NCBI RefSeq assembly: GCF_037975245.1
Contig: NC_092577.1
Coordinates: forward strand, 33,738,898 to 33,802,897
Reading direction: 5' to 3'
Length of the DNA stretch: 64,000 nt
From: Apostichopus japonicus
Lineage: Eukaryota > Echinodermata > Holothuroidea > Aspidochirotida > Stichopodidae
In this document: piece by piece, positions 19,601 through 42,355 of the stretch
Layout: each line of letters starts with the position of its first letter
Numbering within the stretch: position 1 is the stretch's first letter
The notes under the pieces: model-generated
Told to the model about the DNA's origin: nothing
What the model saw: the letters and a program-made list of their open reading frames with translations, nothing else
Databases searched by the model: none
Program-made: the position numbers and the translations under genes

Positions 19601-22600
19601 TTTAAAACAATGTATGTAGCTATTCAAACAGAGACATAACAATAAACCAGTTCATGAGGTTCATTGAACCAGTGCATCTCTCCCCCAACCTCCTCCCCCC
19701 CCCCCCCTCAATGTCAAGATGCCAAAAAGTGTCGGTTTTGACATTTCGGTCCAACAGACTAGTTTATTCTTCAGTATTTGTCAACATACCTATACAATAG
19801 AATATCTTATTAAAATGACTAGTACTGTTCTGTTTTCTTGTTTTATTTAGTTGACAAATAACTGTCCAATTTCAATACGAAATCTATAATGGTACCTTTT
19901 CTTTATTACATTTGCACTACCCAGATTTATCATGGTTCCCTTTTCTTTGTTTACGATTTTTCGGCAATCCATCAAGTGTAGTTTCGATGTAGTAACATGG
20001 TGAGAAGAGAACCCACAGCCCTCACTTCCCGAAAGTCGCAGACCGTCGGTATCTTCCACTATTATGCGAGGGGTGTTTTGCATTCGTGTAGAATCTAAAG
20101 CAGCAGTTTGTTTTGTCGTTCTCAAATTATTTTTGAGGACGACACTGCACATCCCTGACATATATTAATTTAGCGAATTAATATTATTTATATTATTATT
20201 GATCCCTAACCTATGCCTACCACCAGGGTTGTCACCACGCCGGGCGGCGCCGGGCGGTGCTACCCAGCTCTCAAAATTTCCGCCCGGTACTCAAGGTCAA
20301 TTTCAGCCTTACCGCCCGGCACAAATTAGCCTACAGTACCGCCAATAAGTAACTTGGTAAAGATAAGCGCGATTCAGTGCAAAACGCAGCTTAACTGTAA
20401 TTAACCCCGCGGAACACTGTCACAAATTACCCGGCTCTAAAAATGGTCTGATGACAACCCTGCCTACCACATATGCCCAGGGATGTGCCCAGGACTTCCA
20501 GAGTGCCGGGTATACTGATTGCCGTCCTGGGGGAGGGGTCTAAATTTTTGAAGGTGCTCAGATGCCAAATGCTGGCACTTGTGTAACTATTTAAGCACAT
20601 ACACAAGTACTAGTTTTGCTAACAATTTCCATTTTGTCATTTTTTTTTTAAGTGAAATATATTTCGTACCTGATAAAATTTATTAGTTTGTTTCAAAGAG
20701 ATTTTACAAAGGACCTATTGAGAGCCGCAAGTAATGTTTCTCACATGCGTAACTGATGCATTATTAGTCTGTATGATTTTGGTATAGGCTAGGCCCAATT
20801 TATGTTGAATATATTGTTAGGAATGTCGGGATTTTAGATGAAAATAGTGCTGGGCGGGATTCTCGATTTTATGACAGTGCTGGGCGGTAATATGTAGTGC
20901 TGGGCGGGGCCACCCAGCATGGGCACATCACTGTATGCCTATGCAAAGACCACACGTACCTGATTTATCGGATTCGACCGGTGAGTCCGCCTTACTGGTA
21001 GGAATACTATCATATGATCCATAGAATTTCTTAAGATCAATGCTGCCCTCTTTGGAGATGGCTCTGATTGTCAGCAGTTTATTACTCTCCTCGAATGTCA
21101 TGGCCAAGACAGGCTGTCCCTGCTTTATCCTCTCCTCTGCAAAATAAAATCATTAACGTCAATGTAGTCTTAAGGTGGTAATGAGGTAAGGGGGGGGGCA
21201 GGGAGGGGTATGCATGGGGTAAGGGATGGTGGTGGATGAGGAAAGGTGGGAGAAAGGGAGGGTGGATGATATTAGGTGAGGGAAGGGAGGGGAGTGGATG
21301 AGGTAAGGGATGGTGGTGGATGATGAAAGGTGGAGGAAAGGAAGGGTGGATGATATTAGGGGAGGGGAGGGAGGGGAGGGAAAGGAGTGGGTGGATGAGG
21401 TCAGGGGGAGGAGAAGGGGGGAGGTGGATAGATAAGGTTAGGGGAAGATGAGGTTGGCAGGACTGTTTGATTTGGGCTAAGCCCCACAAAATGTGTCAAT
21501 ACAGAATACAACAAAAACATTTTGCTGTCAAAACTGGCAACAGGACCAGGGTTAAAGAGAATGACATTTAGAGAAACTGATGGGAAGCTGGCCAGAGCCT
21601 GGCTGGCCAAAGCCTGGCTGTCCAGAGCCTGGCTGGCCAGAGCCTGGCTGGCCAGAGCCTGGATGGCCAGAGCCTGGATGGCCAGAGCCTGGCTGGTCAG
21701 GCTGGCCAGAGCCTAGCTGGCCAGAGCCTTGCTGGCCAGAGCCTTGCTGGCCAGAGCCTAGCTGGCCACAGCGTAGCTGGCCACAGGCTAGCTGGCCTGG
21801 TGGCTTGAAAAAGAGATAGATTGAGATATATTACAGCACTTTATAAAGCTCTTTGGAGATCTGTTAACAGGATACATGGATACAGGATGTCACAGTTACA
21901 TTTAAAGGCTTAAAGCCCCTTAGCCTAGATACATTAAAAAGCTGAAAGGCTTCATTAGCCTATAGATACATTAAAAGGCTTTAAAGCCTCATTAGCCTAT
22001 AAATTTGACCTTGACTGTCTGAGGGATTTTTTTTTTTTTTTTTGTGTTAAATAAGCACAAAATCAGAACGAGGCATATTTTTGTGGCCATAATGTGGGCT
22101 TTTTCGCATAAATCGAGCAAATGAAAAAATTCCAAAGCAAGACCGTCAGTTTCTTGCTAGAACTGTTTTCATCCAGTGCCCTATAAAGATCATTTTAGGA
22201 CTGCTACAAGCGAAAAGGATAACATTTGACATGAAAGCCAATCAAGAGTTATATATATCTACTCACTTTCATATTCTTCAATATAGTTCTTGACTTTTTT
22301 ATTCTTCAAAACCTGTTCTGAAAAATCTTTCAGTAGACCGATGTTATCGAGTGCGATTTCGTCTTCGTCTTCTAGCAGCTTGAAGAAATCCAAAAGGTTG
22401 TCAATTTCGTCCAGCTCCTGTCCAGATGCCACACTTCGAATTGAACAGTAATCCTTTAGGTCGGTTAGTTTCTTCTTTGGTAACTGTTGAATTACGGAGT
22501 GCAAAAGACACCTGCCAAAATAAGGAACCATGGAACGAATTCAAAAATGGTAATTTCCCTTTTTCTTTTAGGAACGTAATTTATTTTATCTTTACAATTA

Positions 22601-22841
22601 TATTTCAAAATGGGAAGGATTGCTAGTCATTGTAAACTTCTTTCTATTTTCTCTGCCTTTTATCTTTAAACCAAAAACTTCCATTTAGGGAGAACATTTA
22701 TGTATATCTTGCACTACCTGAATTTGATTGTATAAAAATATTCAAAAAGTCAGAAGACTACATTCTGTTTCTTTGTAGTCAACTGAAAAATATCCACTCA
22801 AACAAAATGCTGTGTCGCCAAAAAAAAAGAAAAAAAAAAGG

Positions 22842-22877
<36 letters not shown>

Positions 22878-22926
22878 GAAAAGTCGTAATATATATACAT
22901 ATGTATATATATATATATATATATGT

Positions 22927-22973
<47 letters not shown>

Positions 22974-23687
22974 TATATATATATATGGAGGAGAAAAAAT
23001 TAATGAGAAAATGTATACAGGTAGGATTTATGTGAGTCTGCACCTCCTTGCAATTGGGGTCTCCTAGCCATCCACTACAAAGTGAATTACGGTAAAAAAA
23101 AAAATTTTAAATGGTCATTTCTCACAGGTTATTTATGGTACAGATATCCAGACTGAGCTGATAGCATTTGACCTTTTTATTTAGTTATGTACCCAAACTC
23201 CTCCTCATGTCGACCAACCTTACCGAAAAGGATCCAAATAAGAAAATCCATCATCTGTGGGCCAGTTGATCGCCGTTCCCTCGAAGACTTCTCTCTTTGG
23301 CTTCACCATGCCAATCCTATGCAACAGTTCTGCAACCAAGCCAACGTTTGTCTTATCGAGTGTTCCATACGTCGACATGTCACTGAGTATATCTGTTGCG
23401 CTTTTCGCATTCTCAAGCACAGCTTGATCCGTCACTTTATCGTGGCACAAAAACTTAACATCTTCCAGTCTTAGGTTTGGGATTCTGTTTCCGACATCCA
23501 TGATGATGCTCGCAAATTTTTCTTGCGACACCGAGGGCTGTGAATCACTTCCATCTTTGACATCATTTAGTTGTTTGCTATCTTCGGAAGGCCGGACTTT
23601 GGGGCTTGGTTTTGCCGTCCCCCGAGCGATGGCTAATGACAGGTCCAAAGGCTTGATGTCTATCGGCAAGTTAGACGAGGGGTTCAT
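13608..23687 (-). CDS. CASP8: Caspase-8-like initiator caspase with tandem death-effector domains, 8 coding exons
   Basis: Minus-strand exons 23224-23687, 22267-22511, 20960-21136, 19383-19436, 18893-19039, 16291-16503, 14879-15088 and 13608-14101 join in phase to 667 residues; human caspase-8 has about 479. An acceptor precedes the first Met, so a non-coding 5' exon is expected. Residues about 55-140 ([20 protein letters not shown]) and 155-235 ([21 protein letters not shown]) look like two DEDs. A long linker has a basic KRPKRRP stretch. The caspase domain starts near [14 protein letters not shown], with His483 in [10 protein letters not shown] and Cys526 in QACQG, the caspase-8/10 form. 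The small subunit has [18 protein letters not shown]. Such enzymes are activated on FADD-type platforms and cleave after Asp. Oddities: neither DED shows a clear RxDL, and the linker after the Cys has no Asp. A CASP10/CFLAR-like role is an alternative; the intact dyad argues for a protease. Confidence 0.88.
15601..16245. mobile_element. Probable MITE in a caspase intron
   Basis: The left end CAAGGGCGGCGAAAG is matched by the reverse complement of the right end, CAAGGGCGGCGGAAC. Just inside each end there is a GGGGGGCAC-type run in inverted orientation. The interior carries AGGGGCGTGACCAGGATTTG, of a type often seen in such relicts, which may be a second nested piece. No transposase. It ends 45 bp before the exon at 16291-16503. 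The target-site duplication is unclear. Confidence 0.5.
16504..17665. repeat. Tandem array, about 145-bp unit, about 8 copies
   Basis: Units contain GTGTTGGAAACACAAAGG, CCTCAAAGGAAAACAATAC and GATGGGTTTGGCTTCTG in fixed order. The GTGTTGG/GTATTGG landmark recurs at about 16647, 16798, 16942, 17087, 17231, 17376 and 17522. The array fills the caspase intron right up to the splice acceptor of exon 16291-16503, and the exon-proximal unit merges with the acceptor. Open frames here are repeat artefacts. Confidence 0.93.
20224..20462. mobile_element. Non-autonomous hAT-type element (239 bp)
   Basis: Terminal inverted repeats CAGGGTTGTCA and TGACAACCCTG, flanked by a perfect 8-bp target-site duplication CCTACCAC at 20216-20223 and 20463-20470. 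The GC-rich interior has CCGGGCGGTGCTACCCAGC and no ORF. Eight-bp duplications and CAGGG ends are hallmarks of hAT elements. Located in the second coding intron of the caspase gene. Confidence 0.88.
20478..20933. mobile_element. Second non-autonomous hAT-like element (456 bp)
   Basis: Left end CAGGGATGTGCCCA; the reverse complement of the right end is CAGTGATGTGCCCA (13 of 14). TATGCC occurs directly outside both ends and may be the remains of a target-site duplication. Internal GGGCGGGGCCACCCAGC resembles GGGCGGTGCTACCCAGC of the element 15 bp to the left, so the two are probably related families. No coding capacity. Confidence 0.75.
21590..21800. repeat. 15-bp minisatellite in a caspase intron
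   Basis: About fourteen units of GGCCAGAGCCTGGCT with point variants towards the right end. The unit length is a multiple of three, so a long frame (Pro-Glu-Pro-Gly-Trp) stays open, but nothing supports its translation. Confidence 0.92.
22842..22987. repeat. AT dinucleotide microsatellite
   Basis: Alternating AT/TA tract with occasional C/G interruptions, in the first coding intron of the caspase gene. It produces Ile-Tyr open frames on both strands that are artefacts. Confidence 0.95.
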
Positions 23688-25154
23688 CTTGAATCAGTCT
23701 GTCATCATCCTACAAAACTAAAAATTAAGAAAGAGTAAAAACAAGGTTTTATTTTTTTTTCATGTTTCCAGTTTCACAAATATTTTTAACATATTTCTTT
23801 ATTATACTGTGGCTTCAACAACTCAAATAATTTAAGAAAGTAAGACAGACTTTCATGAATTTATGTTATGTCATTATTTGGATCAGAAAGGTGATTTCAT
23901 GAGCATGGCAATTTAGCTCAATTTACAGTCATATTGCCAATATTGGGTCAGGAGCCAGGAATATAACTTACTACTCCACTTTTTCAAAAATTACACTATC
24001 ATAAAAAAAACTTGAGAATGGCTGTGATCTAGCAACCTTGCATAGTTCATTCCTACTGACCTTCAATATTTCACAAAAGTAGGAAGATTTACAATGTTCC
24101 ATCCCCAAGGAGATAAGGGATATTTAGCAACTTTAGACAAGACAGCCATATAGAAAAGTAAACAGTGATTTTTTTTCTTCTTCACAGAACTCAAGGTTAA
24201 AACAGAGGACATACAGGTAAATACAGAACTAGCACTTGGCAGTTGGTAACATGCATATTTTTGCAACAACAAACTGTTGCCACAACAATTATATAGGCTG
24301 TACATCATCATGTAAAGAAATGTTGTGCACTAACTTAAGCAGTTCAGAAAACATTTGCAGAAGTAATTATATTTCGTTTATTTCAGGGAAAACGTAATGG
24401 GATTTTCTCCATGTTCCTAAGTCAGTGACCCTTGAGAATGAAAACGGGAATTCATACATTTAGTAGTTATGGTACTAGTACTAGCCGAGGCCTAGTTATC
24501 TTCATTGCCACTTAATAATTACAAACACTTAGAAATTACAAAGAGCAAACACTCAGTCCTTAATGTAGGTTATAACCTTCATGTAAATGTCAGTGAGTAA
24601 GAACCAAAGTTGAAGAGTATTGCTTAATAACATTTACAACACAGTAAAAGTGAGGCTTAACTTAGGCTAACTTGTACTAGTTGTACTGTACTGTAGCATT
24701 AATCTAGTCTAGGTAGCCTAAGCCTACAGCCTAACGTGAGGTAATATTTATTTAGGTTACCTCAGTTTGGTAGACAATTGTGTAGCATGTAACTCGTTCC
24801 GTGATTCGGTAGATGTAAAGATTAAATGTTGAGGTTCAGCAACCTCAGTCCCAGATATCATTATCATTCGTGCATTTATCTTTGATTGACGAATCATTCA
24901 CAAAGACCTTGTATAAGAAATTCTAAAGTTCGGAAAGTACAAACGCGTTAACGTGTTTGAGTCACTATTACTATATACCATCAACACAACTGGAAAACAA
25001 AAGGGAATTCCCTCTTCTCCATCTTAGTCATAGTTGCTTACGCAATCCCCCCAAAAATTGTGTGGGGACTTTTATCAGCTATATTTGTATGAATACCGTA
25101 ACACTTGCCACGACACTTGCCCCACACCTCTTATCGTTTGGATTTGTGACCTCC
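23688..25154. other. 5' region of the caspase gene
   Basis: The first coding exon starts at an acceptor at about 23719 on the minus strand, so non-coding 5' exon(s) and the promoter should lie here or further right. No exon or promoter element can be pinned down. The rest is unremarkable AT-rich sequence. Confidence 0.4.
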
Positions 25155-28187: not shown

Positions 28188-31100
28188 TCATTCGCTGTTA
28201 GTATCCGACTGTTTCCTCTGAGATGAAACGACGCTTCCCCCCATCGGTGTGTACAAACTGGATAGTGGTATCTCGTAGAAACTATTTTCAATTAACGTTT
28301 CGAATATCTATATGAATAGAAATGATGAAGAAAAAAAATGGAAAATACACAAATATCATAAAAGGCGGTAATGGAAAATACGAAAGAACAAAAGGTGCAG
28401 AAGATGAGACAAGAAAGTTACAAAATCCAAAAATGATTTGCCGAAAAAGATTATTTTTCATTTTTGGCATAGCAGTATATATAGTCTTCTATCAAATGAA
28501 GAAAACTCTTTTATTGTTTAAATCATCAAACGTTGTTGTTTATACCACCAATCGATACTTTTAATTTCGCATTTTCATGCATGTTTTTACCCTAAGTTGC
28601 ATAAGTGAAATCGTAGCTAACATGCTTACTTCGTTAACTGTTATGGATATCTTTATTATCACTATATGTTGGACCTGTTTGAGACAATATCGGTTGCTTT
28701 GATTTCTATGGTTACCTTCATCGACATGTATGCATATTCATTAGCAAAATATATACATTGATATTTCATCGCACAATATGGTTTATGAAAGATATTGATA
28801 CAGCAAAAATAGGGTAATATTTTTTCCAAATAATAGAAACAAATCAGTATAAATAAACAACAAAATCCTGACAAAAAAAAACACAAAAATTGTCCGTCTG
28901 GAACTGGATTCGAAACCAATTATATATCTAAGGAATAAAATTTACATATATTTTAATTATTTCTTACCGATTTGAATGAAGCTCTCAGTTGATGGATGGA
29001 CGGTCGCAAAGAGCAGTTTTGATTCCAGCAGTCAAATAACGAAAGATTACTGATGAATATGACAAGGATAAGAGTAAAAATTTAACCTGTAATTTATTTC
29101 ACTTTTCAATCGGACCTGGTGCCTCACCTCATAGATATACCCTTTTATCTTTTTTTTCATATATAATTCAGTATTTCAATTGCATTATGAGATTTTTCAA
29201 ATAGGTTATCTTTGTCTTTGAGGTAACACGTAACCATATATATATATATATATGTAAACATAATATGTAAACACATTATTTTCGTTGAAATAAACAAAAC
29301 GATTATTTTCGTTGAAATAAATATATATGTATATACCTTAGTTGTAGGTATCTAGGTGGCCAAATTAAGTTGGGTGTTTCGACATCTTGTCCGGGTATAA
29401 GTTCCTCGTCCACTGGGAACGGAGAGGTTCCTTAATATAATACAAACAATGAAAAGAAACAAAGGCAATGTCTTTCTTCATCATTATTGTCAAAATGTAC
29501 TATCATATTTAAAGTAAATTTACGATTCACTAAAATATTAATGGATTGGCAAATATTAAGTACCTTCTTTAAATAAAAGAGAGTACCCTTTTCGTACATG
29601 TGGGCACTGCATCCCCTAGAGCCCCCTTACTAGTTTTGCTCTTCCCCTTCCCCTTCCGCTGCCCTACCCTCCCCCTCTCCCGTCTCTCCCCGTCGCCGGG
29701 TCTCTGGCTAAAAATACAGATGACTATCCGTGACATGATTCGATATACGTATTTGCTTTCAAACTTTTTCACAGTGTTCCCTTTCATATCTTATAACCAC
29801 AGAGTAGAATTATCGTAAAGAGACAAGGCTGAATTCAGGGGCTGCACCTGGAGGAGAATGGGGGGGGGGTCGGGAGATGGGATTATGTCGCACCCAACCT
29901 TGCATTTAGGGACCCTGCGACAAAATAACTTCTAAACACAACACGCAATTTATAAGTCGCAGTCAAGTAACCTAATGTATAAACGACGCTAAAACATTAT
30001 GAACTCATATTTACCACATCAGTTAAAAAAAAAAAAAAAAAAAGGTTATTTGTGTGAAGATGAAAAATTAATTGTACATGTCCAAAAGTAATTTTAATTT
30101 GTGTATAATCACCATCTGACAAAATCTCCCATAGAACTACAGCCGTAGACCATACGTCACTTTCATGTGTGTATTCATTTCGGAAGACAGATTCTGGAGG
30201 TAACTGGTTTAAAGTGCATGAAACCATCTGAACAAAAAGGAAACAATGGTTGGTCACAGTACACCTCTCTGCTAATCATTTGTCGACAAAATATGCAGTT
30301 TCGTTTTCAGTACGTTCTCAATAACTCGTTCTCAAACGCGGTACACCAAGAGAGTATATAAGATATAAAATACAGCGTAGAGTAGAACGTGCATATAGTA
30401 TCGCAGACGATCGCAATGCAAACTATAAGGTGCTAGGTATACACATACGCCCGAGACTGTATAAGTGACGTGTGGTAAAACCCTTTCCAATTTATGACTG
30501 AATTTGTGAGGGAAAAAATTACTGAGTTCAGTTGCAAGTTAATTTTGATTCAATAAAGATTTTTGGTAATAATTAAGTATCGACATAAGCCAACAAACGT
30601 ATGAACTGCTAAAAAAAAACAAAAAAACATATGAGACAGTAGCGGTAAGTATACTGAATTCTATACTACTAAGTGAAAACTCTATATTACGTCATCAAAA
30701 CAGCGAAGCAAAGTGGTCTCATGGGGGACATATTTGCTCCTCGAAACTCATTCCCACCCCCCACCATATACACATTTACCCTCCCCCCTCCCCAATAAGT
30801 GACGCCGTTGATGGACATCATTTGATAATCGTTAGTTTAGATCTATATACGAAAAAACGATAATAAGTAGAAATAAAGAACTTAAATAAAATATATATAA
30901 AGATGGAAAATCTACCAGCGACTTCTTTAGAGACACGATCTTTGGTGCGTCTTCAGCCAGACAAAAATCATATAATTTACATATTCCGTCTTTGGTGTAT
31001 AAAACCTTCTTTGTTGAAAAACCCGGATGTAAAAACTGTAAGTCATAAAGATAAAAACCGTTTCCATTTTTATAACGATTATTAACTTCTTTTGTTGCCA

Positions 31101-34100
31101 TTTATGACTGTTTGAAACAACAATTTGCAGCAAAGATAGCGTTTGAAAATTCATTTCGATTTTTTTGAGGGGGTTGGGGGAGGGGGGGATAAAAGTCTAG
31201 CAAAGTCATTAACATGTATGAGTAGGTCTAATATACTTATTACGTATAACGACAGTTACATTGTGCATGCATGAAAAATTTCATCTATATCGGAAGGGGG
31301 GAGAGGAAGGGGTAAGAGTTGAGGATGGAAAGTGGATGGGGTAAGTGATGGATATGGGTGGGAGTGGAAGCGAGGGAGGGGAGAGGGAGGTAGGGGAGGG
31401 AGGTGAAGGGGGAGGGGATGCGAATAAATATAAAACCAACTATTATTATGTAAATGACGTACCCCATATGATTGAATAAATGCCATTCCTTCTAAAATTC
31501 CAGATATATGTTTCATGGCATCAGGTACTAACATTGGACTTTGCGTGCATTCTGAATCAGGGTCAAAGTTCAGTCGGCTATCCAATGTCTCACAAACAAC
31601 ATGTTCCGTTATGAGGTAGAGCGTACCAGCTATATGAAACATAAATTCAATCATTAAAAGTGACCGTATAGACACCATCAAGAGAGAGTTGCTAATGGTT
31701 CAAGCTTATAATATATCAGCAGTAGCCTATATGGACAATAGGGGCTAACTAAATTGCATGATGATTATATTGGGACACCGAATTGACTTCTAAAAGTGCA
31801 TCCGTCCATGCTTGGGCTAAGAAAGTACATGCACAGAAAAGACAAATTTTCCGGGGGAAATTATCGGTATACTGTGTAAATATAGTGTTTCATGTTTCCA
31901 ACTGCATGCAAGTGCGAAAACCTCATAAGTCATGGGTTAACCAAAAATCTCTCACATGCTTGATGAGGTTTACTTCGAGTTATATGCTAATCCATATAAC
32001 CAAATAACATAATCCACATATAACCAATCCACATATAACCACATATAACCACATATAACCACATATAACCAATATAATACCAATATAATGCACATATAAC
32101 CAATCCACATAACCATCCACATAATCCACATAACATAATCCACATATAACATATAACCACATATAACCAAACAAACATATAACCAAATAACAAAATCCAT
32201 ATAAACATATATAATCCATTAAAACCAACTACAAAAAAACATCACAAACACACACAAAATACAACAGAATATTGGGCAATTGACTCTCTTTTATATTAAT
32301 CAAGTTATACACCGATCAGAGAGCTGTAGCAGCTAACACAGAACGACATGCGAGGTTGGAATTATATGAAAATGTTTTAAAGAAAACAAAGGGAATCAAA
32401 CTCAAACACAATGATGGATCGTAACATCTGAGGTTATAGCACAATCAGTGATCTCTTACCCCCCCCCCCCCCTCTTTCATCCTTCCCCCTCCATCGCTTG
32501 CGGATAATATAATACTTAGTAATAGTCTTTTTCTCTCTCACGGTAGTTAGAACCTTGAAAAACGGATGAATTCGTTATCATTTCTTTAAGCAATATATAA
32601 AGTAAACAAAGAGTAAATAATTTTGGTTAAAAAATGTACTTACTTTTATCTACTCCTATTCCTTCAATTTTAGTCAGGTGATTCGTTTTCGGCAGATCCA
32701 GTGTTCGCTTAACAAATATATCCCAATGGATAATTTTCTTCTTGATAACTCCATCTGACGTCGCGTAAAATAATGAAAGAAATCTCAGGTTACATTGTTT
32801 CCTTACATATCTTGGCCTATGGGCCTTTTTCATAAAAATTAAAACAAATTGTATTGTAAACTTTACAAAATTCCTCTTTTTACCACTTAGACTACTATGC
32901 CCCTCCAAATTGTTACTATAGGTATCGAGAAGGGTTCAAGTAGATTTAAATGCCTCTCAGGGAATGTCCACCCCCCCTCCAACCCCTCTCAAAAAACACT
33001 TCAACTAACCACTATCTACTTCAAACAGACTTCTCCTCTTCATTATTCCCCTTACCCTTCTCTACCCCCTCCTCCTCACCCTCCCCTTCTCTTACACACA
33101 TCCTCTTCTCATGAATACATGTAAAACCAACATCACAACACTAATCTACTATAATGTATTATCACCGAAAGGTATATACACATCATTCTATATATCCTTT
33201 GCATACAACACCTCACAAAACTATACTCTTTAATAAAGTCATATTCACCCGAAGTAGTCGTTAGAACCGCGCATTTTTTGCCGTGAATTGTTCCCATCCA
33301 TCTATTGTATATAGTTCCCATCTTTATACTTAATAAGAGACAGAAATCGTTCTCACTGAAAATTCTGTCCTTTCCAGTACCTTCCTTCGCCGCTGAGTAA
33401 TAATCTAAGAATTGGGAAGGAGGGGGGGGGGGGAGTTTGAGGGGAGGTGAGTTGCAGGAGGCGGGAAGAGGGAGGGATAGACGAGACAAAAAAATGTATA
33501 TGATGATGAAAAATGAAACATTTAAGAGAAAATACATTTGTAGCGTGAATGATTTAGAACAGTACTTATAAATGTTCTGATCACCTTCCAATGACGTAAT
33601 GCTTGTTTTTACGACACTATTCAGGGGATTATCTATACTAATCCTAAAGAATTTGATTCGAAGCACCGAGATCAAAATCCTGTCATTCATATAAAGACGC
33701 ACTATTATTGATTTATTATGCATTAATTAATTCTCCTCTAAGTAATTTGTAATTCTCCTCTAATTAGTTTGTAAATTAATTCTCCTCTAATTAATTTGTA
33801 ATTCTCCTCTAATTACTAATTAATTTTGAGCTACATGAGACTCTGATATAGCAGAGATAAATCTTTAATGGTTTGAAACCTATTGGTGCAACACCAAACT
33901 AAAAGAGCCTACATTAAGATTGGTTATCGCAAAGAGAATAAAATATTATAAATGTAACTTACTAGTTTCACTGCTTCCAGTCGAGTTTAAAGAATTACTC
34001 TCATCACTCGGAATGCTTGGCAGATCGGATCTAAATTGAGAGACAGAGAGATTATTGAAAACGCTCTTAATTTCATTACAAATCAATAATAACCAGCTAC

Positions 34101-37100
34101 TTTAACTATAGAGTATATTGTCTATATGCACAGATTAATACACTAGCTACATTAGTATTCTTTGTGTCAATGTCATTATTGATTGAATACCATCAAAAGT
34201 CTTATATTTGATCTGTGTGATATGATTCCAAGGCGTTCACAAAAAAAAAAAAAAATGAGATTGTAGCTTATCAAAAGAAATTCTCACAGCATACAATATG
34301 TACCCATATAGACCCATCACCTAATTTGCATATACAACACTCTGAGCAAACCTTGCAATTGTTTTGCTAATCATTAAGAAAAAGAAATTGATGTAAGTTT
34401 ACGTAATTACCTTCGGAATGAAACAATTTTGAACTATGTCTTGTGATTCGAAATGGTTTAATCATTACGATTTGGAAATAATTTTTCTATTTCGGAATAC
34501 GTTATAAATACTACATATTTACAAGAAACTTCACTATTTCATGTTACAGAAGGAAAAAATAAACAGCAGAACAAACACAAAAAAAACATAAAATTCTTAC
34601 TTTGGTTTTCCTTTCAAACTTCCTTGCAAATTATTCGGCAGAACTAAGGGGGGAAAATGTTTTAAATAATATCATGTCCATATATTATTAATGTAATGGA
34701 TTTCAAGCCACATATAGTGTATGGAATAATATGATTGATTAACGTACGTGATTGGTCGGTTACTGGCATGCTGGTCAGTTGAATCTGAGATGGTCCATGG
34801 AGATTGGAATCTCTATTCCTAGTAAGAAAACAAAACAAGAAAACAATCAAATATGACTTTCAAAGTCATTTTCTGAACTTGCAGGTTATGCCAAACATTG
34901 TAAATTGCTATATAATCTCATAAATGTTAATTTTCTTTGGGGGGGGGTGTGGAGGAGGGGGGGGCTAAAACAATAATTGAAAATATTATTAAAAATATAT
35001 AACTTACGGTGCCAAGTTAGCAGACATCGAAGCTACAAAGGGATTGTTAACAAGAAGAAACATTATGAACTTAAGAGAAAAGGAGTGTAAGAATTGCTTC
35101 ATAATTTATTAAACAAACAATGAATCATATAGTATTCCATTAAGATGAACTCGTACAATGTCAAATTCCTTATTCATTTTGCTTTTATATTTTTTTAACT
35201 ATACACTTTCCTTTAAGCTATAACATTTCCAATTGAGAATTGCATAATAAATTGTTACGACACAAAAAGAAGAAAAAAGTGATGAATACACTCACATCTG
35301 AGTTTGTTGATTAGTTTGTAGCAACATAATGAGAGGATACACAATAAAGCTAGAGTAGGACTCAACCACTGAAGAAACAAGAATCCTCCTACTAGGAAAT
35401 GAATGACAAATATAACAAAATAAATTAATCAATTTATGAAACATCATAATTACATTAAGTAAATTAATTAACGGATGTCCTTAGGTACAAAATTAATGTT
35501 TTAGATGGTATTGGTCTATATCGGTCCAAGTTGTAGTTCTATAACACTTTATATTTTAGTTTTTTTCAAACATATGAGACCTACCAATTAAAATTGGTAA
35601 TTAGAAACACATGCACAGATCATTAACTCAGTTTATTAGTTCACCATATTTAAGTGAAAGAAAACAGTTGTTGTGATTTCTTCTAAGTATAAATGTCCAT
35701 TGTGGAAAAAATTGTGATGTGACAATGACATGTCTGTAAACCAATAAATGAAATGGAATAAAGTAAAAGTAGAAATTATGCTACTTTTGATAATTTAAAA
35801 TAGTTTCCCGTTTCTTTTCTGTATATGTGACATCGTTCAGCGAAATTAAAAAGATACCAGGGAAACTTTATGTCTTAATTGATATGAAGTTGTTAATTAA
35901 GTCAGACCTGAAGATAAAGAAGGCACTAGACTTATAGGTGTTCTTGTTCTTGTTGTCATTGTTGTTGTTGTTGTTGTTGACTCTTCTGAAAGATAAACAT
36001 AGTAACAAAGGACATGAAAAATACATTGATATGTCATCCTAAAGCAATAGTGTGCAAATAAAACATATCAACAGATTTCATGTTGATATTTTGAAGCTAT
36101 TTCAGTTGTCTTTAGTAAAATTTTTAATTGTATTAACAAAAATGAAGTTCATGTAGTTATACCAGGAAAATTTCGACTTTTATATAGGGAACTCAAAAGT
36201 CTCAAACTTTTTACATTGTCCATTTGTGTTTAATATTGATATAAAGAATGTTTGGACGACGGAATATACGTTTTCTTATACACACATAGGCGTAGGAGCC
36301 TAATGTGATTGGGGGGGGGGGGGGGCTGTAACGACTTGCCCGAAAAATATAACCAAATTTTTTCGCGTGCGTTCAACATCGTAATGTGCATATCATATTG
36401 GCATTCATCGGTTATTACATCACATGCCAAAAACATACAAACATTTTCCGTGTTATTGCCCTTCCATATTGGTTACAATTATTGGGGCAGCCGTTACAAT
36501 AACAACGATAATAATAATATCAGCTTAACCATTGAAAAACACATTGCAAATTATTCTTCTTTCAGTAGGTGCCCGAAAAATTCTCAGCATATTGCCCGAA
36601 TTTTCACACAAATTTTTGGTTGGGGGGGGGGGCTGCAGCCCCAGCCCCCCCCCCCGCCTCGTACGCCTATGCTTAGACACCTGTCACGATTGCATCGTAC
36701 GGTACTAAAATCTTTGGACGGTTATATCGCGGTGGTTACATTACATCTATGGATGTTATAACGGTTATATCGTCAATTCTACAAGTTTCAGATAACAACA
36801 CGATTACCGCCTCCTCTACATAAACCGGTGCATTAACGGTATATAAACTAACGATTTGTATATCTTTGCAGTTAATAAAACTTGAGATCTTTGTTGATGT
36901 TTCTTACCGGATAATTCCAATATTATCGTTACGCTGTTGTTGAGATAAGTATCATTATGGATGTGTTGTATGCTTCTGCAGATGATAGTCTCGGGTTCCA
37001 GCCGTTTTACCAGAGGATACGAAATTATTGTGGAACTTTCATTGGACGATGAATCTCTCACAGCTTCAAGTTTCTCGTTAAAGAGATAAAGGGATAGCAC

Positions 37101-39290
37101 CGCCTCTGGTATTGCTCTATCAGCATGGCATGACACATTCAACTTCGTTCCTGTTTTCACAAAATGTTCTCCCTCGACCCTTTTGCCATTAAAAGTCATG
37201 TAAAGATCTGGAAAGACTTGACGTATGAAAGAAAAATTTTGAACAGCCAAGTATTTCTTCTTTCGTAATTATTCCGGACCCCTCCCCATACCACCCCCAC
37301 CCCAATCAACTTACAAGTATATTGGTGAATTCAGGATTTCTCTAAAGAGGGTATCAGCTCAACGCATTAATCCAACGCAAAATTACTAGCTAAGTGGCGA
37401 GGCATTAGAAATCGTCGTATTAGAAGATGCTGCAAAGATTGCGCGCATCCTGTCGCCATCACGATATCACAACTTCAGAACCTATGGATAGCCCCCTGGG
37501 ACACGAAACCCAAAAGTCATGTAACGTTATAATTCAAACTTATATATATATATTCCCGATATTAAGAGACACGAAATTTTTAAGTGTAAGTTACTTTAAT
37601 ATATGGTTTGAAAATGAAACCGTGAATAGATATTAAGTTGATCCTTACCATAGGTATAAAGTGAAACATTAACATTGTAAACTTTCGAGGCGACGCCATA
37701 AGCATTGCAGGATATCGTAACCACGTCTCTATCCGGTCGATAACTCAAGAAAACAGATTTTGAAATCGTTGGAACGTTTTCAGTGACATGTTCTACAGAC
37801 GTTTGTGTAGGTGCAAATGTCTCTTCACCGTCATAAATGACCAAAGTAACGTTTACTGCTGGCCTGGACTCCGAGGCAAGACAGGTTATATTTAATGACA
37901 CATTTTTAGGAACCCAAAGATATGCTTGATCAAGTTTAATTTCATTGATACTTATAGACATCTTTGGAGGTACTGTAAAAAAGAAAGAAAAGATGGTTGA
38001 ATGAAGTAAAGAAGTACCACGATATAATCCCGAGGGGTAGAGAGGGGGGTAGAGAGGGGTACATGAAAACCTTTAGTACACTTTGAGCGCGAGCATGCAG
38101 GGGAATACAGTATTTTAAATAGATGGATGTAGCGCTGGGTCGTTGAAGCGGGGCCTACATGTAGCATATGCTACTATAGTTAAACCCGGCACTGTATATA
38201 CACTCTTGTTCAGAATTAAGTAGCCTTTAGTCGTGATTGCGCTTATACCCTCGTATACTTGTAACAGTACTTATGTTGTTTTTACCGTACGACAAGTAGG
38301 ATATGTTATCTGGCGACAATAGACTCAATATTTAATGTACAAAAGCTGGATCCCGAAAATCTCACAGAAAGTAAGCTAGGCTTGATAAATCCTCTATATA
38401 CGGTAGTGTGGTATAGGTGGGAATTATCAAGTGCGTCACGTCAGTATTGTAAATAATTTCTGTGACATCATCAATTTAATATTATATACCATACCTTCAA
38501 GCAAACAGCTATTCCATTAAAATATCCAAAATGTCGAATTTAGCAAAGAGTTGTTAATATGTAGAACGAATGTATTGTCGAATACTACATACCAAAAAAA
38601 ATCATGTCGAATTCAGTCTATGAGATGTCGAATTTAGAAAAAAAAACTCACAACCTGTCGAAATGCGCAAACCATATGTCGAATTTAGCAAGTAGCATGT
38701 CGGATACAACACACCGTATGTCGAATAATGTCATACATATGTCGAATAATGCTACAACCATGTCGATTTCCAGAAATCGACATGTCGAATTTTACAGATA
38801 CCTGTGGTCGAAGTAACCATAAGCTGTCGAAAATCACTCACCGATAGTAACGCCCCTTTCTCTCCCGACAAACTATAGGGGTGGTCTACCGTTGTAACAG
38901 GTACGAGAAATGGGACAAATGTAAGATTCATTCTTACTGGAATACATTTGCGATTTGTTTTTTATTGATAGATTGAATATACATGGGGTCAACTGTAAGC
39001 GCTCGTAAACCGCACTCGTCACCCTGAAAACAGGCAGGTATGTGTGAATTGCTGATTTCTAAAGGGTATATAAATTACACTTATGTTAAATAGACAGCGG
39101 CATCGTTTCAAGTACTGTACACCTGTGATCGGTATCGACACCAACTGTGTCACTTGAATTTTTTTTTCTGCAGAGGTGAGCTGGGTCGGTGTGTAGTTTC
39201 CATGATCATGTAAATCATGCACTAACATTCTGGTGTACTGAGCGGGGTGGACATCGTGAACAGAAAACTGACGGGAGTAGCCTATTGGGG
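28188..39290 (-). CDS. Single-pass Ig-domain receptor with a tyrosine-kinase-like pseudokinase domain
   Basis: Minus-strand exons 39123-39290 (less sure), 37649-37972, 36908-37207, 35908-35985, 35296-35388, 35008-35032, 34748-34818, 34601-34643, 33963-34030, 33249-33404, 32644-32754, 31463-31629, 30916-31035, 30113-30227, 29337-29430, 28968-29049 and 28188-28217 join in phase with no internal stop. Exons 37649 and 36908 each encode an Ig-like domain with Cys pairs (LNITC/VTISCNAYG; LNVSCHADR/ETIICRS). Exon 35908 is a Thr-rich stalk and 35296 the membrane span (PTLALLCILSLCCYKL). The kinase-like part keeps VIITEH-type beta-5 (LYLITEHVV), LPPESVF for APE, SDVWS and CW...LRPS. It has HPG for HRD, DFC for DFG, Leu at the VAVK Lys (CAVL) and no glycine loop. 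Catalysis is therefore unlikely; a docking or decoy role is inference. Signal peptide and first exons are not identified. Confidence 0.82.
31990..32215. repeat. Degenerate ACATATAACC minisatellite
   Basis: Irregular repeats of ACATATAACC and AATCCACATA within a receptor intron, between exons 31463-31629 and 32644-32754. The Tyr/Val/Trp-rich frames on the minus strand come from the repeat. Confidence 0.85.
33721..33830. repeat. Short repeats of AATTCTCCTCTAATTA
   Basis: Four or five near-copies of TTAATTTGTAATTCTCCTCTAA in a receptor intron. Simple tandem duplication; no other content seen. Confidence 0.8.
36285..36671. mobile_element. MITE with poly-G/poly-C flanks in a receptor intron
   Basis: Left end CATAGGCGTAGGAG; the reverse complement of the right end is CATAGGCGTACGAG. 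Homopolymer G runs lie just inside the left end and a G run plus a C run just inside the right end. The interior repeats TGCCCGAAAAAT. No ORF of interest. Target-site duplication unclear. It lies in the intron between the stalk exon and the membrane-proximal Ig exon. Confidence 0.6.
38524..38815. repeat. Spaced ATGTCGAAT motif cluster
   Basis: About a dozen copies of ATGTCGAAT or TGTCGAAT separated by unequal, unrelated spacers of roughly 8-25 bp, in the intron upstream of receptor exon 37649-37972. The spacing is too irregular for a clean minisatellite. The origin is unknown. Confidence 0.75.
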
Positions 39291-39641: not shown

Positions 39642-41050
39642 ACTGAGGAACTTACACTTTTTATTTTTTGTAATCAAAACTTTAACTTTTGTTATTTTCA
39701 AAAATCAGGCTCTTAATTCTGTTGAGAACCATCTGGCAAATACTAGATTTTGTGGTACAGAATTCAGCCGGGATCAATTTCTCCATCTTTCCACACCAGA
39801 CTATGGATTATTTAACCAATCCGAACTAATAGTTATCACCTCCTTTAATTTTTTCAAAGCCTATAGCGCCATTTATGTAAATTTAGTTCCAAATACCCCT
39901 CCCCCACCCCCTCGGAGGTGCCCTTTGTCACAAGGCCTATAAGGTAAAATGTGAAGAAAGTTTTAGCAGTCTCTTTCTTGAAGGAGGCATGACGTCACTT
40001 AATCACACTCCTAATTTTCGAGCGAGCCTCATGCATGACCCATTCCTCATTAGAGTGGTCTCACAGTGTGCAGGCCTACGGAAAAGCACTACACATCTAA
40101 AAAAAAAAACCAAAGGGGGGGGGGTGCGGTTATTAATTCGAATATACATAGGCATTAATTCAGATATATGCTGGACTCGCTGGAGATTAAATCGAATCAT
40201 TTATGGCCAACTAGAGAACAGAGGTACGGGTACATGAAAAACCAACATAGGAACGGTGAGATTAACCCTGACTAGTTGTTGACATCCAATCGCCAGTCGG
40301 ATATCCGCGATTCTCACGCTCATTAGCTTGCCATTGTGAGAAGGCTAGTCGTGGATCCGGGTAGGTTACGTGGCTAGTCGCTATTGACTTTGAAGTTGGC
40401 TCTAGCTGGGATGTGGCAGAAAACAGTTACTTCATAATTTCAGAAACCCAGCACATTGGTAGGTTTGCAGGCATGTTTTAAAATGTTAAGTTCCTTGTAT
40501 ACATATCCTATGTAGCATATAAGAACGTGTGTAATGCACCCAAGTTAGCAACCGACCTATACTAAAGTACTATAGCTTAGTACTAGTAGTGTTACCCTAG
40601 GCTTAAGTTAGGCATACAGTAGCAGACAGACTCTAGTACTAGTAGCCTAAATTAGGCTTACGCATACAGTACTTGGGCATTGATGCATCCAGCGAGAGGA
40701 AATGCCAGAAAAAGGGTAGGAAACTGAATTGTAGTCTTTTTCCCTTTCCCTGACACAGGTGCAATATTGGGGGGGGGGGGGAAGGCAGTAAGAGTAGACC
40801 TACAGGTATGTTAATTGGTGTTAGCAGTGCTTCACATGGTAGAAGTACTTAAGGCAGTGAGAATCAATGAGAACTCTGAAAAAATAGGTATAATAGACTT
40901 AAACCCTTTGTCACTCTTGAGCATAGTTCTCACAAATTCATAATATTGTAGTCTTCCATTTGTCTCTCTTCTATTGAAATGATTTTCCCTTTCTCTCTCT
41001 TGTTTACGATCGACAGGCTTTGGGTTTGGCATGTTCAACGATCCCTCACA
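39642..41050. other. Head-to-head interval between the receptor and the sulfotransferase gene
   Basis: Must hold the 5' part of the receptor gene on the minus strand and a non-coding 5' exon of the sulfotransferase. A strong acceptor (pyrimidine-rich, ending GATCGACAG) lies at about 41019, just before the sulfotransferase start. A near-duplicate of TACTAGTAG/TAGGCTTA occurs around 40570-40670. No exon can be fixed. Confidence 0.4.
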
Positions 41051-42355
41051 ATGCTGGGTTTCCGTGTCCGGGGAAAGCCGGTGCTTTGGTTGACCGTTTC
41101 CATGGCAATCATCATCCTCGTGACTAACATATCTCATCACCAGAGTAAACAAAGTGAAATTTTGCAGCATCCACCGCCATTAATGCGAGGTGACGTTTCG
41201 GGTGCTTATGGTTACAGATCACCTTCCCGTCCGAAGCAAATGTCTTTCAAGTTAGACGGTGATGACTACGACATGTCCTATCTTGAGAATCAGTTCTTGG
41301 AGTTTACTGGCAGCAGCTCTGAAGATTTTGATTCCGAATTTTTCTCCGACGAAAATGTCACTTTTCCCGAACAAAATACGAATCAAAAGTTGACAGATTT
41401 TGTGGTGAACAAAACTACAAACGTGTTTCAGCATGGTTGCTATATGAGAGGTGCAATAAAAGGAATTAAAAAGCTATTACCAGTTGATGTTTTAAGTGGG
41501 CTAGGCTGCAAGCAAAGACCCCCAGAGGCTATCGTTTTCGGTGTGAAGAAAGGTGGCACAACAACGCTGAAGGAGTTTTTAGCTTTCCATCCGGGGGTCT
41601 CGGTGGCACCAAAGGAATTGAAATTTTTGAGCAGTTCATTCTTACGTAAACAGGGTCTGGAAGGGTACGCCTCTCTCATGCCCTACAGCCTGCCGACTCA
41701 GATCCCCATTGAAAAAACACCTGGTTACATGGTACGATATAGATGTATCGAACCGTTGAAAGAGATGGTACCAAACTGTAAGTTAATCGCCATTTTGAGC
41801 GATCCTGTAAAGAGGGCAGTATCCGACTTTGTCCATCTCTCTTGGGTCAGAGATCATAGAGAAGGCGGGGCCTCTGAACTGCTACCCAAACATGCCCACC
41901 AGATGCCACACTATGAAGTCAAATCGACGTTTGAAGAATCTGTTTTTTATCCAAACGGATCACTTAAGACTTGGAATACACTTTTAGATACAAGTTTATA
42001 CTATAAACATGCCAAAATGTGGATGGGATATTTTCCGCCAGAAAATTTTCTATTCTTAGATTCTTCGGACCTCGTCTACAATCCCGTTCGAACCTTCCAA
42101 GAGATTGAAGAGTTCTTAGGTTTACCTCCGTTTTTTTCGGAACATGTCTTCCACTTTAATGAGACGAAGGGCTTTTACTGTGTGCGCTATCCTATTTATT
42201 CGTGCATGCCTCCATCCAAAGGCAGACCGCATCCAATTGTCGATGATAGAGTAGTGAAAAAGCTACAGGAATATTTTGAGCCTTATAACAAAGAATTTAG
42301 CCATCTTATCAACAAAACATTCTCCTGGACAACATATGCCACAGATGATGAGTGA
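41051..42355 (+). CDS. Heparan sulfate glucosamine 3-O-sulfotransferase-like enzyme, single coding exon
   Basis: 434 residues. I start at ATG 41051 because an acceptor (CTTGTTTACGATCGACAG) lies between this ATG and the earlier in-frame one at 40979. The start gives a type II Golgi protein: short basic tail, anchor (VLWLTVSMAIIILV), then an acidic stem. The 5'-phosphosulfate loop is FGVKKGGTTTL (about residues 163-173), with KELKFL after it, keeping the Glu of the HS3ST active site. The 3'-phosphate region is AILSDPVKRAVSDF (about 247-260). The C-terminal FYCVRYPIYSCMPPSKGR keeps the HS3ST disulfide pair and the KGR motif. The family transfers sulfate from PAPS to the 3-OH of glucosamine in heparan sulfate. 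Ser replaces Arg in the usual RDP, and Lys replaces His after the Glu. The subtype (1/5 or 3-like) is not decided. Confidence 0.9.
   Translation: MLGFRVRGKPVLWLTVSMAIIILVTNISHHQSKQSEILQHPPPLMRGDVSGAYGYRSPSRPKQMSFKLDGDDYDMSYLENQFLEFTGSSSEDFDSEFFSDENVTFPEQNTNQKLTDFVVNKTTNVFQHGCYMRGAIKGIKKLLPVDVLSGLGCKQRPPEAIVFGVKKGGTTTLKEFLAFHPGVSVAPKELKFLSSSFLRKQGLEGYASLMPYSLPTQIPIEKTPGYMVRYRCIEPLKEMVPNCKLIAILSDPVKRAVSDFVHLSWVRDHREGGASELLPKHAHQMPHYEVKSTFEESVFYPNGSLKTWNTLLDTSLYYKHAKMWMGYFPPENFLFLDSSDLVYNPVRTFQEIEEFLGLPPFFSEHVFHFNETKGFYCVRYPIYSCMPPSKGRPHPIVDDRVVKKLQEYFEPYNKEFSHLINKTFSWTTYATDDE

Follow-up and report, generated by a model that had tools for sequence, protein, structure and literature searches.

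A predicted family of immunoglobulin receptors with a dead tyrosine-kinase domain in the sea cucumber Apostichopus japonicus

The genome of Apostichopus japonicus almost certainly holds a family of receptors with a dead kinase domain, and the gene described here, located in a 64,000-nucleotide stretch of DNA (the window), appears to be one member among a hundred or more. In this family, the dead enzyme domain has the look of a signalling part that was maintained and copied, not of a decayed leftover. Expanded receptor-kinase families are already known in Apostichopus japonicus; what is new here is the whole-genome family of dead-loop receptors. The combined explanation that we favour, and consider on balance probable, is that these are immunoglobulin (Ig) receptors signalling without catalysis, as scaffolds or co-receptors; our confidence in it is lower than in the dead family itself, because the scaffold or co-receptor mechanism is less secure.

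An open receptor gene in the window

The window gene consists of 16 minus-strand exons (37972..28188), in which every intron is GT-AG and all junction phases agree. The joined exons give 655 codons without a stop, followed by a terminal TGA at 28190-28188, which bears out a preliminary description of this DNA as holding a stop-free gene with agreeing phases. Stops make up a fraction of 0.0607 of the intron triplets, the rate we used for the chance expectation; on it, 655 open codons would arise by chance with P ~1.6e-18, a figure that precedes correction for exon choice. The exons are as follows.

Exon 1, 37649..37972, minus strand: Ig-like domain 1 with two Cys; matches C2-set_2 below cut-off (E 0.0027)
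Exon 2, 36908..37207, minus strand: Ig-like domain 2
Exon 3, 35908..35985, minus strand: stalk rich in Thr
Exon 4, 35296..35391, minus strand: predicted transmembrane segment FLFLQWLSPTLALLCILSLCCYKLINKL, from a hydrophobic stretch
Exon 5, 35008..35032, minus strand: juxtamembrane
Exon 6, 34748..34818, minus strand: juxtamembrane
Exon 7, 34601..34643, minus strand: juxtamembrane
Exon 8, 33963..34030, minus strand: juxtamembrane DLPSIPSDESNSLNS; 95.7% identity in the C19 paralogue
Exon 9, 33249..33404, minus strand: N-lobe; by eye, IKMGTIYNRWMGTI takes the place of the Gly loop and CAVL that of VAIK
Exon 10, 32644..32754, minus strand: alphaC region, in which the Glu position holds a basic residue
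Exon 11, 31463..31629, minus strand: from hinge to alphaE
Exon 12, 30916..31035, minus strand: dead catalytic loop HPGFSTKK and DFC
Exon 13, 30113..30227, minus strand: PPE and SDVWS (APE and alphaF)
Exon 14, 29337..29430, minus strand: C-lobe
Exon 15, 28968..29049, minus strand: C-lobe, CWNQNCSLRPS
Exon 16, 28188..28307, minus strand: C-tail with YEIP and YTPM, stop TGA; conserved in the C19 paralogue (L111)

The receptor layout thus comprises Ig exons, which score above cut-off in relatives, and one predicted transmembrane exon. In those relatives, the paralogous exon 1 at C19 16.85 Mb matches C2-set_2 at E 6e-8, and the exon-2 region of the C19 13.77 Mb paralogue scores 22.0 bits against a cut-off of 21. 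Compared with solved structures, the Ig region had no relative, its single match standing at E 0.77. Two Ig exons were found in the window gene, whose exon 1 begins in mid-codon; the 5' end, expected further upstream, was not found, and the search for a signal-peptide exon returned one weak candidate (38931-38802).

Loss of catalytic residues within a retained kinase fold

The window protein matches Pfam PK_Tyr_Ser-Thr (PF07714) at E 7.7e-26 over profile positions 59-256, and its best PDB match is FGFR4 (E 5.9e-20); all the motifs quoted earlier as surviving markers of the kinase fold are present in the translation. The C-lobe losses are firm. As first described, HRD has become HPG, the loop Asn is Lys and DFG is DFC, both in the translation and in a MAFFT alignment, so that the HRD Asp, the loop Asn and the DFG Gly are gone while the DFG Asp is retained. 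In addition, the activation loop LAEDAPKIVSLKKSLMVSCTLNQL contains no Tyr, and the usual self-activation is therefore unlikely in this protein.

In the N-lobe, the losses of the VAIK Lys, the alphaC Glu and the Gly loop are by-eye readings and correspondingly weaker, since the Pfam match starts at profile position 59 and pairwise alignments mostly fail: when the N-lobes of three family members were each paired with three active kinases, the lobes came into register at all in two of the nine alignments. The Leu previously assigned to the VAIK Lys position and the loss of the glycine loop depend on a gap-free by-eye reading, because MAFFT opens a gap at this strand; after the pairwise failures we no longer treat the loss of the VAIK Lys as certain. 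The glycine loop had been called gone; by eye it is altered, but it appears rewritten as IKxGTIYNRWMGTI, conserved in paralogues, instead of missing. For the alphaC helix, said to have no Glu, MAFFT does place a basic residue at that position, and we grade the assignment as by-eye.

The dead loop is shared across the genome

Searching the whole genome, we found the exon-12 loop exon encoded at 176 distinct places and 116 matches to exon 9 (N-lobe), the window gene's own copies included in both counts. Of the 116 exon-9 matches, 110 are followed on their own strand by an exon-12 place no more than 9 kb away. HRD and DFG were absent from every one of the 90 paralogous loops read, whose consensus is F.HPGLSTKKIL..G.CKLYDFCL; the residues that replace the catalytic ones are themselves conserved among family members. 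Set against three active kinases from this genome, the family members group as a single clade (100/100), and a distant member, L110, also has Ig exons in a similar layout.

These counts bear on whether the exons might have been mis-joined, such that another exon 12 would restore HRD and DFG. The exon reading does come from genomic DNA alone, but the regular succession of exons 9 and 12 and the dead motif in all loops read argue against such an error, as does a tblastn search of the window with the protein, which gave a single match for exon 12; we find this scenario scarcely credible.

Could the domain instead perform unusual catalysis, through relocated residues or another chemistry? WNK kinases, for example, relocate their Lys. 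In the sea-cucumber family, a Lys close before CAVL is invariant (9/9 sequences), the replacement residues are conserved, the DFG Asp persists in 84/90 loops, and the N-lobe Lys was assigned by eye, all of which would suit such an enzyme. However, the catalytic Asp is missing in 89/90 loops, the single exception being an HPD (L081), and the loop Asn in 87/90, being kept in three. We regard unusual catalysis as highly improbable.

Purifying selection on the dead domain

The closest full paralogue, on C19, has exons 1-15 all present with splice sites and free of stops. Between it and the window gene, dN/dS on the dead kinase domain is 0.20 (bootstrap 0.10-0.41); for ten other pairs, from five genes, the kinase part gives 0.24-0.55, with an upper bound below 1 in nine of the ten. 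All these comparisons are between paralogues within one genome. Because all 90 loops are dead and dN/dS between paralogues is 0.20, we conclude that the pseudokinase state is shared and under purifying selection. The proposal of a maintained Ig-receptor pseudokinase has thus held up, with a same-exon paralogue and a family of dead loops behind it.

In the window/C19 pair, the Ig exons have a dN/dS of 0.68 against 0.20 for the kinase part. Among the ten other pairs the Ig values (0.28-0.96) exceed those of the kinase part in six, often barely, and we therefore dropped the idea of uniformly faster Ig evolution.

Stops in some copies (L037, L066 and one further place in each of two genome searches) point to some decay within the family, as would be expected if the gene were a decaying pseudogene or a set of exons assembled by chance. 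Yet 149 of 150 loop exons, among the matches listed, have no stop, and under neutral simulation just 1/200 runs stayed stop-free down to 60% identity and 0/200 at 50%, at 40% and at 30%. For the window gene itself, the open frame, its chance P, the splice sites kept in the paralogue and the dN/dS of 0.20 contradict pseudogene status, which we judge very improbable indeed.

A possible signalling role without phosphotransfer

Matches to exon 16 (tail) number 61 in the genome, own copy included; 59 lie downstream of an exon-12 place, and 40 have E >0.1. The tail tyrosine motifs were read in two genes, that of the window and its C19 paralogue. If these are receptors signalling without catalysis, the variable Ig pair would serve ligand recognition, with the signal passed on without phosphotransfer; the kinase-like domain could be a docking or allosteric module next to an active tyrosine kinase; and the tail tyrosines (YEIP, and YTPM, a YxxM motif) might become docking sites after trans-phosphorylation.

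Alternatively, the proteins might be decoy or dominant-negative receptors: the two Ig domains would capture ligand or associate with an active RTK, and the dead domain would do no more than block signalling. Such a role would be consistent with the universal loss of HRD and DFG in the loops read and with the nearest solved kinases being FGFR, VEGFR and PDGFR, whose pathways could be titrated. But a pure decoy requires no intracellular part, whereas here the dead domain is under purifying selection, and both copies read carry the two tail tyrosine motifs; we consider a decoy unlikely.

Implications of a proposed scaffold or co-receptor family

Receptor pseudokinases usually occur singly, alongside active relatives. 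Here, a dead domain appears to have founded a family of at least 100 genes within a single genome, and a conserved signature has replaced the former active site. This offers a natural experiment in why a kinase fold is retained after catalysis is lost. A bolder proposal, which we advance tentatively and with some doubt, is that the sea cucumber may carry a larger repertoire of receptor pseudokinases than any other animal: over 100 Ig receptors, descended from one already-dead ancestor, diversified in arrays for recognition and signalling solely via borrowed kinases, with the published FGFR/tyrosine-kinase-receptor expansion being largely dead. If so, much of an expansion linked to gut regeneration would be catalytically dead.

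That expansion, like the dead-loop family, concerns receptor kinases of this species: main-text accounts describe an enlarged set of 38 'Fgfr' genes and an expansion of 'tyrosine-protein kinase receptor' genes, with the sea-cucumber Fgfr genes mostly forming a separate clade, and the word "pseudokinase" is absent from those main texts (PMC6018497, PMC5638244). Should these published genes be the dead-loop family, kinase action would be unlikely for them and the regeneration claims would be affected.

Comparison with known receptors and kinases

Within the same genome, other tyrosine-kinase exons are likewise expanded, several of them in arrays: receptor-kinase exons with HGDLAARN on C17 (13.1-13.6 Mb), C18, C19, C21, C22 and C13. 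The six copies read (L009-L013, L022) have the loop Asp, the Asn and DFG, which rules them out as the same family; they are probably a different, active one.

By kinase fold, the best matches are FGFR, VEGFR and PDGFR, which also share an Ig ectodomain with the window receptor. The family profile scores FGFR3 at 70 bits, VEGFR1 at 67.3 and PDGFRA at 66.7, so that FGFR ranks first among ordinary entries, but the other two follow within ~3 bits and the scores do not set it clearly apart from them; PDB 9p9u was set aside as top match, its summed score not being comparable because one chain carries two equal-scoring kinase stretches. The window receptor differs from these three in its lost catalytic residues and, as far as the exons read extend, in two Ig exons against three, and membership of FGFR was rejected on HPGFSTKK and DFC in place of HRDLAARN and DFG.

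HER3/ErbB3, a dead kinase working with an active partner, carries YxxM motifs in its tail, and one such motif is also found in the window receptor. HER3 nevertheless retains VCIK and DFG, and its ATP site stays accessible (PMC13259870, Table 2), whereas the sea-cucumber family lacks DFG and, by eye, a VAIK-type Lys. The preliminary description had invoked ROR-, RYK- or PTK7-like logic; pseudokinase is apt, but the likeness is loose, because those three keep HKD and the loop Asn (PMC13259870, Table 2), in place of which the family has HP and mostly Lys.

More generally, the human receptor pseudokinases described in PMC13259870 resemble the window protein in being single-pass, with a kinase fold without key catalytic residues, and their signalling is attributed there to dimerisation, scaffolding or allostery. 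All eight retain HR or HK (PMC13259870, Table 2), while in the sea-cucumber family HRD has become HP plus a mostly small residue. None of the eight, as set out in that source, alters all six of Gly loop, VAIK Lys, alphaC Glu, HRD Asp, loop Asn and DFG; in the sea-cucumber family all six sites seem to have changed, with a by-eye assignment for three, and against eight human genes the family numbers ~110.

A receptor gene with an intact frame but without kinase catalytic motifs

The receptor gene occupies the following interval of the window:
37972-28188, minus strand: predicted immunoglobulin (Ig) receptor with a catalytically dead tyrosine-kinase-like domain

Sixteen exons, joined across GT-AG introns with agreeing phases, yield 655 codons without a stop and a terminal TGA, which bears out the intact frame claimed in the preliminary description. 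Stops make up 6.1% of the intron triplets of this gene, giving a chance probability of about 1.6e-18 for the open frame before the choice of exons is considered; the frame is therefore not a product of chance. The first recovered exon opens mid-codon and the true first exon is missing, with a signal-peptide search giving one weak candidate only. In the predicted protein, two Ig-like exons are followed by a stalk rich in Thr, a hydrophobic membrane segment, the juxtamembrane part encoded by short exons, the kinase-like domain and a short tail. The Ig exons fall below the Pfam cut-offs, whereas those of paralogues exceed them. The kinase fold that had been proposed was recovered by profile search of the joined protein (Pfam E 7.7e-26, starting at profile position 59), and among solved structures FGFR kinases come closest (FGFR4, E 5.9e-20).

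We used MAFFT to align the protein with L001, L002 and L003, three active tyrosine kinases from this genome. In the C-lobe, HRD is replaced by HPG, the loop AARN by STKK and DFG by DFC, while PPE, SDVWS and CW..RPS are retained, so that both the lost chemistry markers and the surviving fold markers stood as first described; the activation loop contains no Tyr. The N-lobe losses fared less evenly. Because this lobe is strongly diverged, with the lobes lining up in just two of nine pairwise N-lobe alignments, its residue assignments are weak. In the MAFFT alignment, the alphaC Glu is matched by a basic residue but the VAIK strand falls in a gap, and the proposed Leu at the VAIK Lys and the altered glycine loop are obtained from a gap-free alignment by eye, where they read CAVL and IKMGTIYNRWMGTI. 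In this reading, nine family members all carry Leu, Phe or Ile at the Lys position and Arg or Lys at the alphaC position, in keeping with the reported absence of the Glu. These nine also share an invariant Lys shortly before CAVL, and we therefore consider loss of the ATP-binding Lys in the family likely only.

A large family sharing the replaced active site

We searched the genome (671,581,487 bases in 35 contigs; the window is C17:33738898-33802897). With the spliced protein as query, 69 exons matched, nine of which belong to the window gene, and an almost complete copy was found on contig C19. The loop exon (exon 12), which carries HPGFSTKK and DFC, returned 246 candidates, the best 150 of which were scored, all at E 0.003 or better; a divergent loop exon used as query (best 150 of 197 candidates scored, E up to 0.13) contributed 26 further places. 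Counted from these best-scored candidates, the two sets together mark at least 176 different places, the window gene among them; C12 has 82 and C16 has 53, and 124 of the 176 have another within 100 kb. An independent search with the N-lobe exon (exon 9) gave 116 matches from 117 candidates (E <0.03 in 114). In 110 of these, but in none of the remaining six, a loop place follows on the same strand no more than 9 kb downstream (median distance 1727 bases); therefore, about 110 genes carry both exons.

The loop exon was read at 90 paralogous places, a non-random sample of 20 nearer relatives and a spread down the list, drawn entirely from the 150 of the first loop-exon search, to the exclusion of the 26 that the second contributed. 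The HRD position reads HPG in 71, HPC in 6, SPG in 4, HPA in 3, HPS in 2, and HPD, HPV, HPI and HPF in one each, with Pro invariant at the Arg position (90/90). The loop Asn is Lys in 83, Arg in 3, Asn in 3 and Trp in 1; no place has DFG, 70 have DFC instead, and the Asp of this motif is retained in 84. The replacement residues themselves are therefore conserved. The exceptions are L081, which keeps the HRD Asp, and the three loci with the loop Asn. Stops occur in L066 and L037 and at one place each from the divergent-loop and N-lobe searches; no loop exon was found in the sequence of L033. In a tree, nine spliced family domains, not all of them complete, group as a single clade apart from three active kinases (100/100 support), as expected because the family shares the dead motif; with only three active-kinase rows, this tree does not place the sister family. 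Across the loops read, the dead state is that of the family.

The layout extends to a distant member, L110 on C12, which shows 39–62% identity across the kinase exons and has two Ig exons (one exceeding a Pfam cut-off), a similar juxtamembrane motif, IKMGNIYQRWKG and HPGLTTKK. The tail exon (exon 16) has 61 matches including the window's own, weak for the most part (E >0.1 in 40); 59 follow a same-strand loop exon at a distance of 0.5–9 kb, in a pairing that used 64 of the 176 loop places. Beyond the window gene, only the tail in L111 was read.

Purifying selection on the kinase-like domain

The C19 copy, the closest full paralogue, retains exons 1–15 with splice sites and no stop, and its tail exon, with both tyrosine motifs, lies downstream in L111. 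Introns aligned with those of the window gene, 6,186 bases in all, are 84.9% identical. Nei-Gojobori dN/dS for this pair is 0.20 in the kinase-like part (bootstrap 0.10–0.41), 0.68 in the extracellular part (0.42–1.35) and 0.42 overall (0.29–0.61), in agreement with the earlier impression that the gene is maintained. Among five further family genes, with Ig and kinase exons matched up by position, ten non-independent pairs gave kinase-exon values of 0.24–0.55, the upper bound falling below 1 in nine. When an active kinase exon from this genome was evolved neutrally in simulation, none of 200 runs at each of 50, 40 and 30% identity remained stop-free. Together, these estimates argue that the dead kinase-like domain is under purifying selection.

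In the same ten pairs, the first Ig exon (dN/dS 0.28–0.96) exceeds the kinase value in six, mostly barely, so that faster Ig-exon evolution is not general.

Neighboring genes and other kinases

Other features of the window are:
13611-23693, minus strand: caspase gene directly downstream of the receptor, with two death-effector-domain exons and caspase exons
38540-38830: clustered repeats of the ATTCGACAT type, in the stretch separating receptor and sulfotransferase genes
40952-42355, plus strand: sulfotransferase ORF in a single exon, divergently oriented to the receptor gene (Sulfotransfer_1, E 1.3e-18)
45597-45827, minus strand: BLOC1S5/Muted-like gene, final exon (PF14942, E 1.9e-5; 25.3 bits, just under the cut-off of 26)
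61422-61793, minus strand: retrotransposon-integrase-like ORF by eye, with no Pfam match at 0.001

The caspase gene, presumably caspase-8-like, has death-effector-domain exons at E 1.4e-9 (exceeding the cut-off) and 1.5e-6 (below it), Peptidase_C14 matches at E 4e-23 and 3e-12, and the active-site motif QACQG.

Elsewhere in the genome, another expanded tyrosine-kinase family (L009–L013 and L022, on C17, C18, C19, C21, C22 and C13) has the loop HGDLAARN, with His-Gly-Asp replacing HRD, and an intact DFG. A receptor kinase exon at L005 (C8:28487499-28488038), which we take to be PTK7-like, with HADLAARN and DFG lost, is apparently a dead kinase separate from the receptor family. Many HRDLAARN-type tyrosine-kinase copies with similar spacing, several with an in-frame stop, are scattered over C4, C14, C19 and C20 (for example, L014 and L023) and could be amplified or mobile copies.

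Proposed function and relation to known systems

The preliminary reading as an Ig-receptor pseudokinase is supported and enlarged: the sequence evidence shows a maintained, repeatedly duplicated kinase-fold receptor lacking the catalytic motifs. Its Ig pair would recognize a ligand, and signaling would probably proceed through an associated active tyrosine kinase, with the tail tyrosines in YEIP and YTPM acting as docking sites; YxxM is a p85 SH2 site. The main rival explanation is that the receptor acts as a decoy. A putative immune-recognition role would fit the expansion in arrays, and the Ig-exon selection data are mixed.

Receptor-kinase expansion in A. japonicus is already in print. Two genome papers describe an expanded "tyrosine-protein kinase receptor" family (PMC5638244) and 38 Fgfr genes, mostly in a separate clade and activated in gut regeneration (PMC6018497). 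AjFGFR2 is reported to combine three Ig domains with an STYKc domain (PMC9890533). Among the open-licence papers listed for pseudokinases together with echinoderms, sea urchin, Apostichopus or lineage-specific receptors (12 of 153 for the last), no title or abstract opening describes a family of this kind. What is new is a large family dead at the active site wherever read, with that site conserved and the kinase-like domain under purifying selection. Eight human receptor tyrosine pseudokinases are tabulated with their motif changes in a 2026 review (PMC13259870); in that table, none alters all six motif groups (HRD, loop Asn, DFG, VAIK Lys, alphaC Glu and glycine loop), and all eight keep HR or HK, in contrast to the HP of the sea cucumber receptor.
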